From: Bacteroidaceae bacterium
Lineage (GTDB): Bacteria; Bacteroidota; Bacteroidia; Bacteroidales; Bacteroidaceae
DNA length: 64,000 nt
Assembly (NCBI GenBank): GCA_017560125.1
Contig: JAFYOS010000004.1
Coordinates: 1 to 64,000 of the forward strand
Direction of reading: 5' to 3'
Shown here: positions 10,559-18,346 of the stretch, one piece after another
Position numbering within the stretch: the stretch's first letter is position 1
How the letters are laid out: each line of letters opens with the position of its first letter
Position numbers and translations under genes: made by a program
The notes under the pieces: model-generated
Told to the model about the DNA's origin: nothing
The model's database searches: none
What the model saw: only the letters and a program-made list of their open reading frames with translations

Positions 10559-10807
10559 TTAGTTCCCTTCAATGCCTTTGAGCGTCTGTCGCAACATGGC
10601 GTCGAACGATTCGTCGTCGGTGTCACGCTCTTTATTAAGCTTCACAAGGAAATCGGTCATCGTCTTTATTGCTTGGTTTATTGTCGAGGGATCTTCGCAG
10701 TCGTTTGTAAGTTTTTCGAGCCTTTTAATCAGTCTGTGAAAAAGATTCAACATCTCGTTGCGGACATCATCTATGGTTATCTCTTCGTTTCTTGTTTTCT
10801 TGGCCAT
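10559..10807 (-). CDS. Uncharacterised 82-aa helical protein, divergent from the phage-like block
   Basis: I do not recognise a family. The 82 residues begin MAKKTRNEEITIDDVRNEML and are charged and predicted helical throughout, with a hydrophobic heptad-like stretch LFHRLIKRLEKL. There is no signal peptide or membrane segment. I start it at the ATG at 10807; a GTG one codon earlier is possible. A good -7 box lies 40 bases upstream and overlaps a short inverted repeat. It is transcribed away from the portal/polyvalent block, as a regulator or small packaging-type protein might be, but this is only positional inference. Composition is like that of its neighbours. Confidence 0.6.
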   Translation of the reverse strand: MAKKTRNEEITIDDVRNEMLNLFHRLIKRLEKLTNDCEDPSTINQAIKTMTDFLVKLNKERDTDDESFDAMLRQTLKGIEGN

Positions 10808-10838
10808 CACTTATTGCTGTTTCGGTTCAACTTGTTTG

Positions 10839-10856
10839 CTATCTATACAAAGATAG
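10839..10856. promoter_or_regulatory. Inverted repeat overlapping the -7 box of the 82-aa gene
   Basis: CTATCT, six bases, AGATAG: a perfect 6-bp palindromic pair at 10839-10844 and 10851-10856. The minus-strand promoter box TATCTTTG (10848-10855) lies inside it. This is the layout of a repressor operator, but a 6-bp pair can arise by chance. Confidence 0.35.
10848..10855 (-). promoter_or_regulatory. -7 box for the 82-aa gene
   Basis: On the minus strand it reads TATCTTTG, a full TAnnTTTG match, 40 bases upstream of the ATG at 10807. Confidence 0.6.
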
Positions 10857-10950
10857 TGTCCACGCTTCCCGTGCCGGTTGCTGTAATAACATTATTCGTC
10901 CGATTTTCTCTAAATGTTATTTCCGCTACCTTGTTGGGGCTGTTTGGGGT

Positions 10951-10958
10951 TTCTTTTG
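10951..10958 (+). promoter_or_regulatory. Weak candidate -7 box for the phage-like block
   Basis: TTCTTTTG differs from TAnnTTTG at one conserved base and lies 14 bases before the ATG at 10973. It is the best plus-strand candidate I can find in the gap between the two divergent genes. Confidence 0.25.
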
Positions 10959-10972
10959 CACCAAAAAAAGTT

Positions 10973-11521
10973 ATGGAACCAATTAGTGCATTGTTGACCG
11001 GCATAGCCGGTGGATTGAAACTGTATTCCGGTGTGAAGGGGATGTTTGGCGATAATAGCGCGAAGCGTTTGCTCGACAAATCGCGCGCATCCGAAGAGGC
11101 CTGGTACAAACGGAACTACTACAACGATTATTTGAACAATAGTATGTCGCGTGCTGCAATAAAAAGGGTAGAGGATACCCTGAGCCGCAACAGCCGACAG
11201 AACAGGGCCTATGCTGCCATCAATGGCGTCACCCCCGAATATACGTTGGCGGCTAACGGGCAGGGGCTCACTTCTATGGAGAATGTATTGAACAATCTTG
11301 CTGCCCGCGAAAGTGAACGCCGCATGTCGGTGGATGCCCAACACCAGCAGAATGTGAATAATTTGAACAGCCAGCAGCTTACATGGCAGAACAACATTGC
11401 CCGACAGGCCGACTCGGATTTGATGGGTGGCCTCTCGTTGATTGCTTCTGCTGTGGATGGTGTAAACTGGGGCAAGGAGGGTAGCGCCGTTCCCAATAAC
11501 AATCTGCAACAGAAAAAATAA
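10973..11521 (+). CDS. Pilot-like small protein of the phage-derived block (182 aa)
   Basis: The frame is open from 10541, but I start at the ATG at 10973 because the upstream part lies antisense to the 82-aa gene. The 182 residues begin MEPISALLTGIAGGLKLYSG, a short Gly/Ala-rich hydrophobic N-terminus, followed by long polar helices rich in Asn, Gln and Arg (RSRQN-type and QHQQNVNNLNSQQLTWQNN). This pattern, hydrophobic glycine-rich start plus coiled-coil body, is common in phage DNA pilot and internal virion proteins. No specific family is recognised. Position ahead of a polyvalent virion-type protein and a portal supports an ejection role, as inference. Confidence 0.5.
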   Translation: MEPISALLTGIAGGLKLYSGVKGMFGDNSAKRLLDKSRASEEAWYKRNYYNDYLNNSMSRAAIKRVEDTLSRNSRQNRAYAAINGVTPEYTLAANGQGLTSMENVLNNLAARESERRMSVDAQHQQNVNNLNSQQLTWQNNIARQADSDLMGGLSLIASAVDGVNWGKEGSAVPNNNLQQKK

Positions 11522-11533
11522 CCACGGAATATT

Positions 11534-11836
11534 ATGATGAAAAAGAGGTACTACAACAGATGGGGAAATATGGGCGACCTGATATCGTTGGCGCTCATTC
11601 TGAATTCCTCTATAGAGAAACGTGGGAAGTTCGTCCCTGCCGACAGGAAGGGCAAGGAGCCCGATGGAGCGAAAAACGACCTTATGCAGCCAATGAAAAA
11701 GAGCCCGAGTAGCGATGCCGCCACCACCAAGGCCATTCTGTTCCGCGGTATATCAGCCGCAGACAAAGACGGTGTCAGTTCCTTCTCGCTGTCGGTGGTT
11801 GTACCGGATGCAGATTATCCCCAAAAAAGAAAATAA
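11534..11836 (+). CDS. Uncharacterised 100-aa protein in the phage-derived block
   Basis: I do not recognise this protein. It begins MMKKRYYNRWGNMGDLISLA (a second ATG at 11537 is equally possible), has one modestly hydrophobic stretch (GDLISLALILN) and then a polar, Lys/Ser-rich tail ending DADYPQKRK. There is no signal peptide. It begins 12 bases after the pilot-like gene and ends 23 bases before the 1460-aa gene, so it belongs to the same transcription unit. It could be a small virion or chaperone protein; nothing in the sequence decides. Confidence 0.55.
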   Translation: MMKKRYYNRWGNMGDLISLALILNSSIEKRGKFVPADRKGKEPDGAKNDLMQPMKKSPSSDAATTKAILFRGISAADKDGVSSFSLSVVVPDADYPQKRK

Positions 11837-11859
11837 ATGTAAATTATAAACAAAGTAAT

Positions 11860-14800
11860 ATGTTGAACAACAATTTAGAGAACAGAGGAATTCTAGGATA
11901 TTCGAATTCCAAGGAAAAAAAGAGAATGGATACCATTCTCGACAGTGCAAAAATAGGAAACGCCACACCAGTGGAGTTTTTCGAGCCTTCGCAGGAGCTG
12001 TCACAGGTGGGCGCTACAGTAGATAGAATCGCTCGCTTGGATAATGTGCTTGCCGATACTAATCAGCGAAGCGACTACTATCGTCGTGCGGCACGCGAGG
12101 AGATAGTGCCGACCGATACTCCCGAACGACGTCGTCGCAATTTTGTGCTCTCGAGCAATGTGGTTGCCGACGCCATGGACGATTACTATAAGGGCAATGT
12201 GAAGCCCGAACTGGAGAAGCAGCGCATGAGCGCCGAGGCCGAGGCGTCGGATATCTATCGCAGCAATGCCGCTGTGCCCGGAAGCGAGCCATTTGCAGCC
12301 ATGGGTGCTGCTCGCAAGGCAACCGACCCCGCCGTGGTCATGGGGCGCACCATGGATAGAGTGGATGGTGCCGAGCTCGACAGAATAGCCGGAGCCTATG
12401 CGCGTTACGGTGGCCTCGACTCCGATGCCTATCGCGAATCGGTGCTTAAACCCTCGCTGCAGCAACGCATGCACGACGACTATGTGAAATCCTATGTGCC
12501 CAAAAGCAGTGCCGAGTATATGGCGCGCAATGCGTGGGACGGTTCGCTGTCGGGCAAGCTCACCAACATGGCGCTCGATGGTTTTTCGCAAACCAATTCG
12601 CACACCCTCATGAGCGAAGAGGGCAAGCAGCAGTACAATGCCAACCGTGCCGAGAATTTCGCATCGGGCGTGGGCTCGTTGCTTATCGACTCGGGCATTT
12701 TCTCGGGCTTAGGTGCTATCTCGTCGGGCATCACGGGTAAGGCCACATCGGCAATAGCCAATAATTTGGCCTCGCGTGTCTATAGCAAGGGCTTGTCGAA
12801 GGGCATCAGCGGTGCGACGGCCAAAAATATTGTTGACCGTGTGTTCATGAACAACATAGGTGCGCGCATAGCCCAGAGCGGTTCTGCACAGGGTCTCACT
12901 CTTGGTACATACGATGCAACGAACAGCGTGGTCGATGACCTGCTCTATGGCGAGGGTGTTGATGCCGGCAAGGCAGCGGGTGCCTTTGGTAAGGGCTTCG
13001 GCACGGGAATGATGCTCGGCGCCGTTGGTACTCCTTTGCGAAGTGCTTCGCGTGGGCTTACCGGTGGCAAGAAGATTGCTGCATCGGCCGGTGTCCTTAG
13101 TGCCGAATCGGCGGTCTTTACGCTGGGCACCGAGGTTGATAAAATGGCCAACGATATCGAGGTTGAGCCCATCGACCTGTTGAGCGATTTTGGTGAGAGT
13201 GCCGCTACCTTGCTTGCAATGCGCATGGCCCATTGGATGCCTCGCGGTGTGCGCGAGAAGCTCGGAGCCGATGGCCGCCTGAAGAAAGGGCTCACATTCA
13301 CCGCTTCGGAGCGTGGCGAAATGAGAAACGCCGGCGTCGATGCCGATGGCTTCATCTCGACCGCCGAGCATGCTTTGCGCTCGGGCTACGAAGGGCTCAG
13401 GGGTAACCTGCGCAACGATTTCATTCGCAGTTACGAGCAGTTGATGTCCAACGACATGCTTTCGGCATCTACCCGTGCCAAACTGCTCTATATAGTGGAG
13501 AACAAGCTCACAAGTACGCCTCCTGTTGCGGTCGATTGCAGTGTGGCCGAGAGGAGCGATGGCTTCGTGGTCGATGTAAAGGACAATGTAGGTCGCAGGG
13601 TGGAGCGTCGTACTTTCGATAGCCGCACCGATGCCGAGGCTTTTGTGGAGCGCAACAGCGGATTCCTGCGCAGTAACCGCATTGCAAGCATAGAGGACGC
13701 TTTTCGTCGCAGCATAGATTCCCGTAATTTCTTCAGACAGGCCGGAGCATATGCACGCGAAACGGGTGCCGATGTAAACGAAATTTCTGCGGCAATGTAC
13801 AAGAGAGCGCAGGGCAAGGGGCTCAACGCCCGCGAGGCTGCAATGATTGACGAAATCATGTCGCGTGCGAGCTACACAGACGCTGAGCACGGAAATGTGA
13901 TGCACGATATTCGTCGCAACGTGGAGCTGCGCAATGGCCTTGAAAAGGGTGCTCTCATCATGGCAGTAGATAAGAAGACCTCGGAATGTAGCGATGCCGA
14001 ACTACGAGCGCTCGATGAATACGAGGCGCTCATCAAGGAGCAGAACGAGATTATGCGTTCCGGTGTTTCATCGGATATGCATGCCAATGCACAGCAGTTG
14101 ATGGCCAAGCATGGCTTCGAAGGCTATGGCAACGATCAGATAAAAGAGTATGAGCGACAATATAACAGCTCGCTGCGTGCGCGTCCGCAGCATGGCGATG
14201 CGGATATGATACCGAGCTATAAGATTTTCCACCCCAAGGAGTATGCCCAAGCCAAACAGTACGGTTTTCCCTATCCCGAGGATGGTGCGCCCATGCTCAA
14301 GCGAGGCGATGCACGTAACCCCTCTCCCACCAATCTGTTCAGCCACGACCAATTGGCACGCATGGCTGTCAAGGTGCGCGACATAGCCGATAAACTGCAT
14401 ACCGATGTGGAGCTCATATACGACCCGCACCAGTTCACCCCCAACGAGGAGCTGCTTGGGTACAAAATGGCTGCCAAGGGATGGCACGATGCTGGCAACG
14501 ACAAGGTAACCATCAATCTGGCAGCAAACGAGAGCGTCGAGGATGCAGGATTTACAGCACTGCACGAGATTGTAGGTCACAAGAGCTTCGACAATCTGTT
14601 TGGTCGCGAGTATGCGAATTTCCTCTACGAAATGCTATCGCGTGCTACTCCCGAGGTGGTGAAAAAGGTGAACATGTACAAAAAACGCGGATACGATAAT
14701 GAACTGCAGGCATTGGACGAGTATCTTGCCGACCTTGCCCAGTCGTTGGATAACACCCCTACCGAGCGACGTATGTTGCAGCGTACCATCGATTTCTTGG

Positions 14801-16242
14801 GCGACGCTCTGAACAGACTACGCATTCCCTATGTGCGCGACCTCAGCGAGGGTAAGATAAGAATGTTGTTGCAGCAGCATCGTCGCGCCTTGGAGAACCG
14901 AGTGAGCGCCGATAAGAGAAGACGCGACATTTTCGGCTCGTTCAGGACATCGCACAAGGACGAGAATGCATACGAAAGCGAATTCTATGGCCAAAGCAAC
15001 GGCGAGGCACCCGTGCGTGGCAGAATATCGCCGCTTGCACAGAACCGTTTTCGTTTTTTGGGTACCAAGGGCGTAGGTAACCTCGAGAAGGCCGGCATAC
15101 TGAAAAGCGGTCTTTCCAACCTAAGGATGGCAAAAATGCTTACCGAAGAGGGCGCGAAAAATCAGGTTGGTAACTATAAAGACGATGTCGCGTCGGACTG
15201 GAATTTTGCCGGTGATGGTGTGTGGTATAAACGAGGCGAGGCTGCCAAAGAGCCCGTAGAGGATATAAAAATCAGTCCTGACAAGGTGAAGACACTCACG
15301 GGTTGGGAGGTTGGCGCCGATGGTCAGTGGCGTTACGAGATTGACGACTCGGATATCAACGTGCAGTACTATCCGTTGGTGCAGTTGCGCCGCGAACGCC
15401 CCCGATTGTATAATTTTTACATGGATGTAACCAAAGGCTTCATCGATGGCAGGGAACTCGAAAGCAGCAAGCACAAAAGAAAACTGGACGAGCTGAGCAA
15501 ATTTTTCCAACGCCATAGCGATAAGGATGTAAAGCTCTCCGACGCTGTGCCCGATAAATATTTCTACGAGGCCTATCCGGAATACAAGGATGTGAAGGTT
15601 AAATACATTGCCGAAACAAACACGATGTGTGCATACGACCCGGCACAGAAGGTTTTTTATATAAACCAGGAGGCGATTGGAACAACTGAACTGAACAAGA
15701 GCGTTGCTGCCGAGATGCAGAGGATGATTCAGCGCTCCGAAGGCTTTTCGACCTTCATTCCTGCCGATGAATATGTGCCCGCCGATGTCCTGCAAAGATT
15801 GAGAAAACCTATTGACACCTACATCGAATATAGAAATAAGTATTCCGCCGATCCCAATGTGTGGCCGAAGCTTGAAAACGACCTCAGACAGTATTTTTTA
15901 AGCAATTACGGATTCGATGTGAGAGAAATCCCTGTGGGCGATGAAAGACAAATGGAGCGTTTCCTGTTGTCGTTGCTGAAAGAGAAACCCACTATGATGT
16001 CGGGTGATGTCGAAGAGGAGAATGTGAAGAAGCGCTTCTATCTGCCCGAATTTTTCAGACGAAGAATCCCGGCCGAGAATACCGAATCGTTGCCGCGTTC
16101 TTTCCAGATTACTCCCATGAATGTGTCGGATATGCGCAATCATATTCGAGGCCCCTTGGATATTATACGCTCGTTCGGAATGTGGCCCCGTAGGCAAAAT
16201 CCTATAGAAAAGAGCTACTACGATGGAGATCTTTTGAACTGA
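11860..16242 (+). CDS. 1460-aa phage polyvalent protein with HEIVGH zincin and LPD23-like domain
   Basis: The longest gene of the window is one unbroken frame. Residues 1-250 are charged and helical. Residues about 265-425 hold several Gly/Ala/Ser-rich hydrophobic stretches (for example LLIDSGIFSGLGAISSGI), as in membrane-penetrating ejection proteins. A zincin motif HEIVGH stands at 902-907, within TALHEIVGHKSFDNLFG, which matches the HExxGH(h)..LxG motif of phage polyvalent-protein metallopeptidases. From about 1146, TGWEVGADGQWRYEIDD and the following 180 residues resemble the LPD23 region, but the site where I recall HExxH is here AEMQR (Ala1284, Glu1285, Arg1288). Such proteins are packaged in virions and injected with DNA. 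Family names are from memory; function is inference. Confidence 0.66.
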   Translation: MLNNNLENRGILGYSNSKEKKRMDTILDSAKIGNATPVEFFEPSQELSQVGATVDRIARLDNVLADTNQRSDYYRRAAREEIVPTDTPERRRRNFVLSSNVVADAMDDYYKGNVKPELEKQRMSAEAEASDIYRSNAAVPGSEPFAAMGAARKATDPAVVMGRTMDRVDGAELDRIAGAYARYGGLDSDAYRESVLKPSLQQRMHDDYVKSYVPKSSAEYMARNAWDGSLSGKLTNMALDGFSQTNSHTLMSEEGKQQYNANRAENFASGVGSLLIDSGIFSGLGAISSGITGKATSAIANNLASRVYSKGLSKGISGATAKNIVDRVFMNNIGARIAQSGSAQGLTLGTYDATNSVVDDLLYGEGVDAGKAAGAFGKGFGTGMMLGAVGTPLRSASRGLTGGKKIAASAGVLSAESAVFTLGTEVDKMANDIEVEPIDLLSDFGESAATLLAMRMAHWMPRGVREKLGADGRLKKGLTFTASERGEMRNAGVDADGFISTAEHALRSGYEGLRGNLRNDFIRSYEQLMSNDMLSASTRAKLLYIVENKLTSTPPVAVDCSVAERSDGFVVDVKDNVGRRVERRTFDSRTDAEAFVERNSGFLRSNRIASIEDAFRRSIDSRNFFRQAGAYARETGADVNEISAAMYKRAQGKGLNAREAAMIDEIMSRASYTDAEHGNVMHDIRRNVELRNGLEKGALIMAVDKKTSECSDAELRALDEYEALIKEQNEIMRSGVSSDMHANAQQLMAKHGFEGYGNDQIKEYERQYNSSLRARPQHGDADMIPSYKIFHPKEYAQAKQYGFPYPEDGAPMLKRGDARNPSPTNLFSHDQLARMAVKVRDIADKLHTDVELIYDPHQFTPNEELLGYKMAAKGWHDAGNDKVTINLAANESVEDAGFTALHEIVGHKSFDNLFGREYANFLYEMLSRATPEVVKKVNMYKKRGYDNELQALDEYLADLAQSLDNTPTERRMLQRTIDFLGDALNRLRIPYVRDLSEGKIRMLLQQHRRALENRVSADKRRRDIFGSFRTSHKDENAYESEFYGQSNGEAPVRGRISPLAQNRFRFLGTKGVGNLEKAGILKSGLSNLRMAKMLTEEGAKNQVGNYKDDVASDWNFAGDGVWYKRGEAAKEPVEDIKISPDKVKTLTGWEVGADGQWRYEIDDSDINVQYYPLVQLRRERPRLYNFYMDVTKGFIDGRELESSKHKRKLDELSKFFQRHSDKDVKLSDAVPDKYFYEAYPEYKDVKVKYIAETNTMCAYDPAQKVFYINQEAIGTTELNKSVAAEMQRMIQRSEGFSTFIPADEYVPADVLQRLRKPIDTYIEYRNKYSADPNVWPKLENDLRQYFLSNYGFDVREIPVGDERQMERFLLSLLKEKPTMMSGDVEEENVKKRFYLPEFFRRRIPAENTESLPRSFQITPMNVSDMRNHIRGPLDIIRSFGMWPRRQNPIEKSYYDGDLLN

Positions 16243-16289
16243 TTTGGTAATTGAATGGATATTAAGAATATATATTTATACTGATAGTT

Positions 16290-18248
16290 ATGAATAAATT
16301 CTTGAATCATCGTGTGAAAGCAACCGACTGCGTCGCGCCGAAAATCTCCGATAAGGAGTACAAGAAGGATTTGTCCTTTCTGGAGATGTGTGCGTCGTGC
16401 TGGTATGCTCTTGAAGAGGCTCGCCGCAAAATGCGGCGAAGCCTTATGTATAGCTATGGCGATCAATGGGGCGATTATGTAAGGGATCCCGATACAGGGC
16501 AATGGATTACCGAGGGCAACCTTATAAAGAAGAATGGAAAGGTTCCTTTGAAAAACAACATGATTGCTCCTATCCTCAGCAACATCGATGGACAGCTCAG
16601 GCAGCAGTTGACGCGCCCCGTGTGCGTTGCACGCGACAGCGACGAGGCTGCTGTGGGCGAAATGATGAGTGTGGCCATTGAATATGTTCACGATATAAAC
16701 GAAATAGAGGAGGTCGATTCCGATTCGATGCGTATGCTGTTGAATGGCGGCATGACAGCGCAGCGAATAGAGTATGGACTGAACCCTGCAAAGGACAGAT
16801 GCGATGTGTGGGTCTATGGTGTGAATCCTTCGCGGTTGTTTTTCAATACCAACCTCGAGGATGTGCGTCAGTGGGATGTCACCTGTATAGGTGAGCTGTT
16901 CGACATGCCTTTGGACGATGTCGTTGCCCATTTTGCACGCACGGCCAAGGAGAAGGAGTATATTCGGAATATATATACTCACATCCCGTCGCATTATCAC
17001 AGTGAAAACCGTGGTATGCAGGGCGACGAGAGCAGGGGATTGTCGTTCTACTCGTCGTCGCGCAACGATTTGTGTCGCGTCATTCTTGGTTGGCATCTTG
17101 AATCGCGCGATGCCTATCTGTGGAACGATCCTATGAATGGTACGTGGGGTTATGTGCCCTATGCGCCCAAAGAGAAACGTCGCTTCGACATGGAGAACGA
17201 GCGACGACGCCTGGAGGCTGCCGCCAACGGGCTCGACGAACGCGACCTGTTGCTTGTGGAATATTCCTATGCTACTGAACGCTACTGGTACTATCGCTAC
17301 ATGACACCCTATGGCGATGTGTTGCAGGAGGGACGCAGCCCCTATTGGCATGGCGAACACAACTATGTGCTACATCTCTATCCGTTGGTGCAGGGACGGT
17401 TGGGCAATTTTGTTGAGCAGTTCATAGATCAGCAACGTGCCATAAACCGCACGGCCACCCTCATCGATTTCATTCGCGGTACATCGTCCAAGGGTGTGCT
17501 GGTGGTCGATGACGAGGCTTTCGAAAGCATGAGCCGCGAGGAGGTTATCGATGAATATGTGCGTTACAATGGCGTGCTGTTCGTGAAACTGAAGCCGGGG
17601 CAAAGCATCGATGGTGTGGTGCGCCAATATAACAGCGGCGCATCGGTAGCGGGCGATTTCGAATTGCTCAGTCTGCAATTGCGCCTGATAAACGAAATTT
17701 CGGGCGTCAACAGCGCCATGCAGGGACAGGCACCCAAGGTGGGTACTCCGGCGAGCCTCTATGCTCAGCAAGTGCAGAGCTCTTCGCTCAATCTGAAGGG
17801 GTTGTTCGAAGCCTATCGCACCTTCCGTCGTCGTCGCGACACCAAACTGATGAAGACCATACAGCAGTACTACAACGAGGAGCGTCACATTGAGCTGGCT
17901 GGCAAGGATTATCACGAGGATGCTAAATATTACAATCCCGAAAAGGTGCAGAACGCCGAGATTGACCTGACGGTAGCCGAAGGTTACAATACGCCTGCCT
18001 ACCAATTGGTTGCCAACGATTTCCTGATGGAACTGTTCCGTGCAAAGGCTGTCGATGTGAAGACCGTGCTCGAGAACTGCACCTATCCCTATGCGCGTAA
18101 AATACTAGAGGCGGTCAAACGCAACGAGCAGCAGTTGAAGCAGGGTGAAGCGATGGAGGGCGTGCCTACAGAAATGTTGGAAAATCTGAAAAGCGAAATG
18201 GCGCTTGGCGGCGATGATGCCGAGCAACCGCAAGCGGTAGCCGAGTAA
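16290..18248 (+). CDS. P22-like phage portal protein
   Basis: The 652-residue product is Trp/Tyr-rich and has the features of P22-type portals: an early segment with QWGD and APILSNIDGQLRQQ, the middle part LYPLVQGRLGNFVEQFIDQQ, then QRAINRTATLIDFIRGTSSK with a helix leading into SGVNSAMQGQAPKVGTPASL, and a long C-terminal helical part. Portals form the dodecameric ring at one capsid vertex through which DNA enters and leaves. Length is near the family norm (P22 gp1 is 725). It is the last gene of the block and is followed by a strong terminator. No terminase or capsid gene lies next to it, which is unusual. Confidence 0.78.
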   Translation: MNKFLNHRVKATDCVAPKISDKEYKKDLSFLEMCASCWYALEEARRKMRRSLMYSYGDQWGDYVRDPDTGQWITEGNLIKKNGKVPLKNNMIAPILSNIDGQLRQQLTRPVCVARDSDEAAVGEMMSVAIEYVHDINEIEEVDSDSMRMLLNGGMTAQRIEYGLNPAKDRCDVWVYGVNPSRLFFNTNLEDVRQWDVTCIGELFDMPLDDVVAHFARTAKEKEYIRNIYTHIPSHYHSENRGMQGDESRGLSFYSSSRNDLCRVILGWHLESRDAYLWNDPMNGTWGYVPYAPKEKRRFDMENERRRLEAAANGLDERDLLLVEYSYATERYWYYRYMTPYGDVLQEGRSPYWHGEHNYVLHLYPLVQGRLGNFVEQFIDQQRAINRTATLIDFIRGTSSKGVLVVDDEAFESMSREEVIDEYVRYNGVLFVKLKPGQSIDGVVRQYNSGASVAGDFELLSLQLRLINEISGVNSAMQGQAPKVGTPASLYAQQVQSSSLNLKGLFEAYRTFRRRRDTKLMKTIQQYYNEERHIELAGKDYHEDAKYYNPEKVQNAEIDLTVAEGYNTPAYQLVANDFLMELFRAKAVDVKTVLENCTYPYARKILEAVKRNEQQLKQGEAMEGVPTEMLENLKSEMALGGDDAEQPQAVAE

Positions 18249-18302
18249 TGCGTAGCGCGGTTATTTAGCCTTGGACGCTTCCAAGGGCTTCGCAGCCTGT
18301 TT

Positions 18303-18346
18303 AATCCCCCGGGGCAATAATGGAATATTGGCCCGGGGGATTTTTG
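18303..18346 (+). terminator. Strong terminator ending the phage-derived block
   Basis: An 11-bp GC-rich stem (AATCCCCCGGG, 18303-18313, with 18332-18342), extended by a CAATA/TATTG pair inside the loop, then TTTTT. It separates the portal gene from the Smr gene. Confidence 0.85.

Follow-up and report, generated by a model that had tools for sequence, protein, structure and literature searches.

A portal module in a Bacteroidaceae genome as a probable locus of a dispersed, domesticated podovirus-like gene transfer agent

The stretch of DNA analysed here, referred to as the window, comprises 64,000 nucleotides (positions 1 to 64,000) of contig JAFYOS010000004.1 in the assembly GCA_017560125.1 of a Bacteroidaceae bacterium. 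It lies on contig 31 of this source genome (G000), and other contigs are numbered likewise. A phage-type portal module occupies positions 10559..18346 of the window. It probably belongs to a domesticated podovirus-like gene transfer agent (GTA) whose genes are distributed over at least four loci and which is found in nearly all sampled members of one Bacteroidaceae genus. Four genes of the module are read on the forward strand. They encode a pilot-like or internal virion protein of 182 amino acids (aa; 10973..11521), a small protein of 100 aa and variable sequence (11534..11836), a large polyvalent protein of 1460 aa (11860..16242) and a P22-type portal protein of 652 aa (16290..18248). An intrinsic terminator on the same strand (18303..18345) closes the module. 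The strong terminator described in an earlier reading of this sequence, here called the original prediction, is thus borne out by its RNA fold of -35.4 kcal/mol (z -3.3) and the T run behind it; it was missed by a simple terminator scan and picked up by RNA folding. On the opposite strand, a conserved gene for an 83-aa protein (10559..10810), with no convincing match to any Pfam or PHROG family, diverges from the other four. It adjoins the pilot, polyvalent and portal genes in all 18 genus loci compared and in 36 of the 39 loci of a named genome set, and it is part of the module as its divergent first gene. The four-gene unit originally proposed is therefore real and, with all four frames open on translation, intact, and has to be extended by this fifth gene.

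The portal protein matches the Pfam family P22_portal (PF16510; E 8.9e-35) and the portal family phrog_156 (E 3.1e-56), as the original prediction had it. The polyvalent protein, a probable ejected internal protein, matches the LPD23 domain (E 1.1e-7) and phrog_14770, a family of no annotated function (E 2.3e-11). The zincin motif ascribed to it needs qualification, as the metalloprotease-like motif is HExxxH (HEIVGH, residue 902) and not the canonical HExxH; its H, E and H residues are invariant in 26 aligned polyvalent sequences, and the best conserved stretch of the protein covers residues ~81-710. Similarity of the 182-aa protein to T7_gp14 (E 0.38) and to the internal virion protein family phrog_805 (E 0.087), obtained with a TTG-extended frame, is weak and by itself only suggestive of a pilot function. 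The name is supported by gene position, because the gene precedes the polyvalent gene as in the related phage phG130b and in the genome G080. For the 100-aa protein, tblastn gave a match (29%) in one of the 18 genus loci at the threshold used. Searches against solved structures gave no match at E 0.01 for the portal profile and one chance-level match (E 0.6) for the pilot profile. Third-position GC of the portal gene (0.622) is host-like (host 0.577, standard deviation 0.055). The flanking genes scanned at the element loci of the source genome are host-type by Pfam, the remaining neighbours having been judged by eye.

The original prediction described the module as isolated, with no capsid, terminase, tail, lysis or repressor gene nearby. 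This is correct locally; such genes occur farther along contig 31, with a tail-type gene on contig 1, and the same genomes conserve head, packaging, tail and lysis-type genes. The search for capsid and terminase genes elsewhere in the genome led to a head module at 119-127 kb of contig 31, 99-109 kb from the portal module, with a gap of ~103 kb between the portal and capsid genes. A terminase profile search detected a frame of ~670 aa at 125 kb (phrog_2, E 4e-21). All 25 terminase sequences compared, one of them that of the phage, retain what we take to be, by their usual names, an ATPase-like motif and three acidic motifs. A second, short frame (~320 aa), matched by phrog_2 in most genomes at E ~1e-5, was left out as a probable unrelated ATPase, which is a guess. 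The capsid protein matches phrog_26635, of no annotated function (E 5.4e-22), and weakly SU10_MCP (E 0.092). An SU10-type adaptor is indicated by PF24175 (E 1e-4, below the family cut-off) and phrog_22135 (E 1.2e-10). The scaffold-like gene, which matches phrog_22323 of no annotated function (E 3.9e-11), is named by position, and position alone also gives the terminase-small-like gene its name; the latter is 83% identical to its counterpart in G217, and its homologue in the genome G207 matches phrog_27246, again of no annotated function. A LexA/CI-like repressor gene adjoins the head module (S24 peptidase domain PF00717, E 9.8e-7; phrog_4, E 5.3e-14).

Two further loci belong to the set. On contig 1 (147522-150641), a tail-type protein of 1039 aa is encoded between a gene for an LRR_5 repeat protein and a gene of the ADP-ribosylglycohydrolase family. 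It matches phrog_32516, of no annotated function (E 3.9e-41), and more weakly the virion structural protein family phrog_3287 (E 5.4e-7), and may represent a tail hub or nozzle. In 35 genomes, by a hand count of coordinates, its counterpart (~940-1000 aa) is encoded on the same contig as the capsid. A lysis cassette lies at 97.7-99.1 kb of contig 31, ~80 kb from the portal module, flanked by genes of the HSP90 and glucosamine-phosphate isomerase families. It comprises holin-type and spanin-like genes (98245-99113) behind a gene for a 165-aa protein. The holin-type gene matches PF05105 (E 0.0015, below the cut-off) and is 32% identical to the corresponding gene of G207 (E 1.7e-25), and in several of the genomes read the head operon also holds holin-type and spanin-like genes. 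In the source genome the particle set is spread over four loci on two contigs, and no single DNA fragment could hold all of it.

Distribution of the set was followed at several scales. Among 201 genomes of the family, portal matches were found in 22, of which 13, the source genome included, belong to its own genus and are at least 74% identical; one of the genomes (G130) has a second copy at 58%, and portals of other genera stand at 25-37%. Within the genus, the portal is present in 41/44 genomes and in all 11 of high quality (8 of the 44 are less than 80% complete). The capsid is found in 43/44, in one of these (G227) only as a prophage-like copy, the tail protein in 42/44 and the holin in 38/44. 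A terminase-type frame was read from the match table in 41/44, with none in G202 and G209 and only prophage copies in G227; terminase and capsid matches of the prophage type in G227 were not counted as GTA type. Not one of the 45 portal match rows has an internal stop, although G220, G222 and G223 gave split or incomplete matches. In the named collection, 40 of 42 portal loci are of the genus type, the other two, the second copy in G130 and a locus of Bacteroides timonensis, being phage-like. All 40 genus-type loci come from Bacteroidaceae or Bacteroidales metagenome-assembled genomes (MAGs), and the hosts of these MAGs, where the title states one, are ruminants (sheep, goat, cattle, yak, buffalo and deer). 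The 83-aa, pilot, polyvalent and portal genes stand together in 18/18 genus loci.

Comparison of loci disclosed one compact relative. In G207, nearly the whole set is contiguous within 20.2 kb (C16:4966-25198). The stretch contains the portal, polyvalent, pilot, 79-aa, S24 repressor, 117-aa and tail protein genes as well as those for the spanin-like protein, holin, adaptor, capsid, scaffold, terminase-small-like protein and terminase. It is bordered by genes for a tyrosine recombinase (PF13102, next to the portal gene), an SNF2-type helicase and an LRR_5 protein. Its holin, spanin-like, 117-aa, repressor and 154-aa genes have counterparts in the source-genome stretches searched; an 87-aa gene has no sequence counterpart there, and its place is held by the 100-aa gene. 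Replication genes were recognised neither in the compact locus, by reading, nor at the loci of the source genome, no replication-gene profile search having been run. Head genes next to the module, which had been expected to point to plain prophage decay, do occur in G207 and do not support that reading. Host-type genes surround the set, a tyrosine recombinase stands at one of its edges, and replication genes were not recognised, which argues for domestication rather than decay. In the 10 genomes besides the source genome that have portal and capsid genes on one contig, a hand count gave ~12-35 kb between the two. The portal gene is followed by ligA in 22 of the 39 named-set loci (21 found by pattern and one, L183, by eye; one was checked by Pfam), and in 2 of the 39 its place is taken by the Smr-domain gene that stands there in the window.

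Selection was assessed as the ratio of nonsynonymous to synonymous substitution rates (dN/dS) in the two closest pairs of genomes, G200-G229 and G211-G116, on which the ratios mainly rest because dS is high in most other pairs. In this order, the ratios are 0.020 and 0.058 for the portal, 0.012 and 0.025 for the capsid and 0.061 and 0.030 for the terminase gene, compared with 0.023 and 0.020 for isoleucyl-tRNA synthetase (IleRS), the host reference gene. The pilot gene has 0.045 in the closest pair, and the polyvalent gene, at 0.187 (G211-G116), is the least constrained gene of the closest pair in which it occurs. Strong purifying selection thus acts on portal, capsid and terminase, with ratios far below the dN/dS near 1 that would have accompanied decay. 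dS is comparable between element and host, being 0.22 and 0.46 for the portal and 0.24 and 0.42 for IleRS. Trees of portal, terminase and capsid from 18 genomes each have 9/15 splits in common with the IleRS tree, and of its well-supported splits (support at least 95) the portal tree recovers 8/9, the terminase tree 8/9 and the capsid tree 7/9. Mantel correlations with IleRS are 0.887, 0.778 and 0.891 for portal, terminase and capsid, respectively, with none of 999 permutations as high. Descent is therefore mainly vertical with the host. In a wider portal tree, 33 GTA portals fall on one side of a branch opposite 11 phage portals (Shimodaira-Hasegawa-like approximate likelihood ratio test 99.7); it was built by a quick method, and long phage branches leave its phage part unsure.

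The upstream regions of the pilot, 83-aa, scaffold and terminase-small-like genes have in common an element of approximately TGTYAWTNCNGCAACC, located ~60 bp before the start codons. It is followed 20-25 bp further on by a TTTG box, which we take to be the Bacteroidota-type promoter box TAnnTTTG. A position weight matrix (PWM) was built from 81 upstream regions, 78 of which contributed a site. A held-out PWM was trained on 66 regions from genomes outside the subclade of the source genome and compared with a background of 165 upstream regions without element loci. In the window, the site of the pilot operon, ATGTTATTTCCGCTACCTTG (10914..10933, forward strand, 59 bp before the start), scores 20.0 with the full and 17.1 with the held-out matrix, and is the top-scoring site within 164 kb of contig 31. 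The site of the 83-aa gene, ATGTTATTACAGCAACCGGC (10873..10892, reverse strand, 85 bp before the start), scores 19.1, and 16.8 when its own subclade is left out of training.

The element accompanies genes that have moved away from the head operon. Displaced tail genes of G000, G186, G201 and G217 have sites at -57 to -60 from the start, with held-out scores of 7.6, 19.3, 7.7 and 16.6, which are reached by 3, 0, 3 and 0 of the 165 background regions, respectively; in the 19 other genomes that were read, 18 of which have tail and capsid genes on one contig, no score upstream of the tail gene exceeds 2.0. A full-matrix scan pointed to position 97694 of contig 31, and the genes behind this site were confirmed afterwards by homology as the lysis cassette. 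Its held-out score is 12.3 (1/165 background regions as high). Common control of the lysis genes was tested in this way, and the holin-type and spanin-like genes carry the element, no endolysin having been recognised in the source genome. The holin genes of the sister genomes G186 and G217 carry it too (14.9 and 10.9), and in G201 it stands before a 504-aa gene upstream of the holin (21.3, full matrix). A further site precedes a tail-fibre-like gene of the GDSL type on contig 1 (37386-38734; L264; phrog_5240, E 6.8e-14), with a score of 9.4 (1/165 background regions as high), and its homologue in G201, an open frame of 888 aa, has one scoring 8.6 (2/165). Breakaway genes, each with its own copy of the promoter element, would thus probably stay within one regulon, and the dispersed loci are apparently wired to one shared switch.

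A second element, the inverted repeat TAGCC-N6-GGCTA, is associated with the repressor. Of 13 genomes in which the S24 repressor gene could be read, 6, the source genome included, have an exact copy in front of it, and four more have one with a single mismatch; the sole exact copy in 164 kb of contig 31 is the one before the LexA-like gene. Before the terminase-small-like gene it is exact in 9/22 genomes, with at most one mismatch in six more, and has been lost in all four genomes of the subclade of the source genome. As a control, the regions in front of pilot, 83-aa, scaffold and tail genes, 82 in all, contained no exact copy and one with a single mismatch. This distribution suggests that the S24 repressor binds TAGCC-N6-GGCTA.

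Taken together, these loci very likely represent a selected, mainly vertically inherited and co-regulated particle gene set. In agreement with a GTA, phage-derived head, packaging and tail genes are present, inherited vertically and under purifying selection, with no replication or integration module recognised among the particle genes of the source genome, and the set is dispersed in that genome and contiguous in G207. Of the possibilities raised in the original prediction, a dispersed GTA is the one supported by gene set, conservation, selection and shared promoters. We consider it likely, with slightly less assurance than that the window holds a GTA locus, that this is an independently evolved GTA family, the first in Bacteroidota, in which genes drift apart yet remain one regulon with a LexA/CI-like, damage-sensing repressor. 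DNA damage or starvation would relieve the S24 repressor, which may control its own gene and, outside the subclade of the source genome, the terminase operon via TAGCC-N6-GGCTA. A dedicated activator at the shared element would switch on all loci together. Portal, pilot and polyvalent proteins would then assemble with the terminase, capsid, scaffold and adaptor encoded on contig 31 and the tail-type protein encoded on contig 1. Heads would form on the portal, the terminase would fill them with chromosomal DNA, the pilot and polyvalent proteins would enter the head for ejection, and the tail protein would close it. In a few cells, lysis by the holin and a putative muralytic enzyme would free the particles and feed DNA to neighbours.

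Several observations weigh against this interpretation. Particle formation, packaging of host DNA, induction and transfer are what we infer from the genes; the activator is likewise postulated, the 83-aa and 117-aa proteins being the first candidates. The source genome is a draft with an estimated contamination of 6.41%, and all genomes compared are drafts. The shared element is not exclusive to element genes: the third-best site on contig 31 (18.1, position 139373) has no known element gene beside it, one background region scores 14.6, and a site of 9.0 precedes a host-type gene on contig 13. Two of the four displaced tail promoters, those of G000 and G201, are low-scoring. A whole-genome pattern scan with up to two mismatches gave 36 matches, compared with 15 for a reversed-pattern control; three are known element promoters, and among 7 of the other 33 that were examined, one is promoter-like (that of the tail-fibre-like gene) and six lie inside open frames. 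The tail-fibre-like gene itself is broken by a frame shift in the source assembly and is matched in 3/44 genomes, the source one included. A GH24 lysozyme, tried as the GTA endolysin and rejected, has no match in the source genome and is present in 7/44 genus genomes, and is thus no general part of the element. The capsid tree conflicts once with the IleRS tree and once with the terminase tree, each time in one pair of splits with support of at least 95. Cheaper amino acids than in phage homologues are described as a signature of RcGTA-like GTAs (PMC9662315); here the outcome is mixed, as the cost is lower than in most phage homologues for portal and terminase, and not for capsid. Finally, 7 of 40 loci in relatives have a gene or fragment of one tyrosine recombinase family close to the module.

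That the domesticated particle serves another job, for instance as a weapon that kills or inhibits competitors, as a vehicle for the polyvalent protein or as a means of interference with related phages, appears unlikely, although it is the best of the alternatives. The metalloprotease-like motif and comparatively relaxed constraint of the polyvalent protein would suit it, and a related temperate-type phage in the genus would offer interference a target. A cargo-free particle, on the other hand, would not need a terminase whose ATPase-like and nuclease-type motifs are intact and under strong selection. The co-conserved holin also speaks against such a use, as does the length of the polyvalent protein, which at 1106-1887 aa in the genus is shorter than the 3633, 4176 and 5407 aa found in three phages with a complete frame. 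An ejection system domesticated as an isolated device, as the original prediction envisaged, was dropped once terminase and capsid were found on contig 31, and lacks support since genomes with the module also conserve genes for head, packaging and tail as well as lysis-type genes.

A prophage broken by rearrangement and slowly decaying, also among the earlier suggestions, is very improbable. It would account for genes split over several loci, for the frame-shifted tail-fibre-like gene and for the lack of any integrase seen at the source-genome element loci; set against this are the retention of the portal in nearly all genomes without a stop in any row, the low dN/dS (0.012-0.061 for portal, capsid and terminase), the mainly vertical descent, and the shared promoter element, which the split-off tail and lysis genes have retained at an almost constant spacing. 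Broken frames and relaxed selection, the marks of a decaying remnant, are not observed apart from the one tail-fibre-like gene.

We give equally little credence to a temperate phage lineage that often infects the genus, integrates near fixed sites and merely looks vertical. Close phage-type relatives do exist, namely phG130b (capsid 71%, portal 57%) and the Bacteroides timonensis locus (portal 61%), and a tyrosine recombinase (PF13102) adjoins the portal in some loci; conversely, the gene trees largely reproduce that of IleRS, element genes and IleRS have similar dS within a given pair, the source set is on two contigs, ligA follows the portal in many loci, and reading of the compact locus revealed no recognisable replication genes. 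An integrase, replication, regulation and head genes combined at one site, as in a temperate prophage, are not found in the source genome, where the tyrosine recombinases away from the element loci are distantly related ones (best E 6e-28, 31%). The portal-side recombinase of G207 is at most a possible ancestral integrase: its family occurs in 42/44 genomes, often at several sites in each, so that adjacency in 7/40 loci is no proof of belonging to the element. The seven loci are L164, L166, L170, L174, L177, L182 and L185. Barely credible is the view that separate phage pieces are kept for separate host functions, since the wide spacing in the source genome, with a second contig involved, is countered by the ~12-35 kb between portal and capsid in 10 other genomes, the shared promoter elements and the similar trees. 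A tailocin is ruled out by the presence of capsid, portal and terminase, and a satellite of the phage-inducible chromosomal island (PICI) type was rejected, no integrase having been seen at the source loci and the set being dispersed over two contigs.

The proposed GTA can be placed beside known systems. The gene transfer agent of Rhodobacter capsulatus (RcGTA, Rhodogtaviriformidae) is siphovirus-like and activated by GafA. It is alphaproteobacterial and has another ancestor. Its likeness lies in vertically inherited particle genes at five loci, ~20 kb in all (PMC9662315). FpGTA of Faecalibacterium is, like the set here, a podovirus-like GTA candidate of gut bacteria; its portal, scaffold, capsid and terminase genes form one operon, with further structural and lysis genes in a second operon ~125 kb away, and it is called the first GTA-like element to be found in the human gut microbiome and also the first with podovirus-like morphology (PMC12946183). 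It belongs to Bacillota, measures 10.5 + 5.5 kb, and has demonstrated particles with ~9 kb DNA (PMC12946183). The Bacteroidaceae set, which resembles it by description, amounts to ~20 kb at no fewer than four loci in the source genome, and differs in its shared promoter element, S24 repressor and large polyvalent protein. Literature searches in open-access full texts gave no report of a GTA in Bacteroidota; PMC12946183 reports lateral transduction for Bacteroides and counts the order Bacteroidales as one of the gut taxa in which inter-species gene exchange is most frequent. If the proposed GTA is real, a genus-wide particle system would be a vehicle for such exchange in gut Bacteroidaceae, in which uncultured bacteria would probably package and pass on pieces of their own DNA. 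Prophage finders could miss it because its genes are scattered, and the shared promoter element offers a way of finding scattered GTA genes by regulation and not by neighbourhood. With one compact relative at one end and four loci in the source genome at the other, it also becomes possible to trace on a single host tree how a domesticated phage breaks up.

The nearest homologues found for the set are Bacteroidales phages and prophages, suggesting that it arose separately from the alphaproteobacterial GTAs. Homologous P22-type portals occur in phG130b, in the Bacteroides phages BF1-TP2, BS-TP4 and BKO1-TP3 and at loci in G064 and G080; for BS-TP4 and BKO1-TP3 the likeness seen is the portal match. 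Homologous terminase, capsid, scaffold and adaptor genes are also present in phG130b, and both phG130b and G080 have the order pilot-type, polyvalent, portal as in the window. The phages differ from the set in the polyvalent proteins of 3633-5407 aa noted above, in an integrase-type gene in phG130b, and in a tyrosine recombinase and an antirepressor in BF1-TP2. The temperate-type phage phG130b lies at ~16-69 kb of G130:C6 (L112, L094, L064 and L113), with a terminase 59% identical in addition to the capsid and portal values given above; its genome also holds the domesticated set, and provides a ready comparison of phage and GTA. In the phage-like locus of Bacteroides timonensis (L195, NZ_CBVI010000075.1), terminase and capsid genes adjoin the portal gene.

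Some minor features of the scattered genes were also noted. Homologues of the tail-fibre-like gene in G201 and G218 adjoin, by eye, a glycosyltransferase-like gene. As far as read, the phage-type GH24 lysozyme is joined to the holin cassette in three sister genomes only (L227, L229 and L228), as if the cassette had gained or lost it. A second holin and lysozyme pair, in which the lysozyme match has an internal stop, was found at G186:C17:2260-3193, and an open pair is present elsewhere in the same genome.

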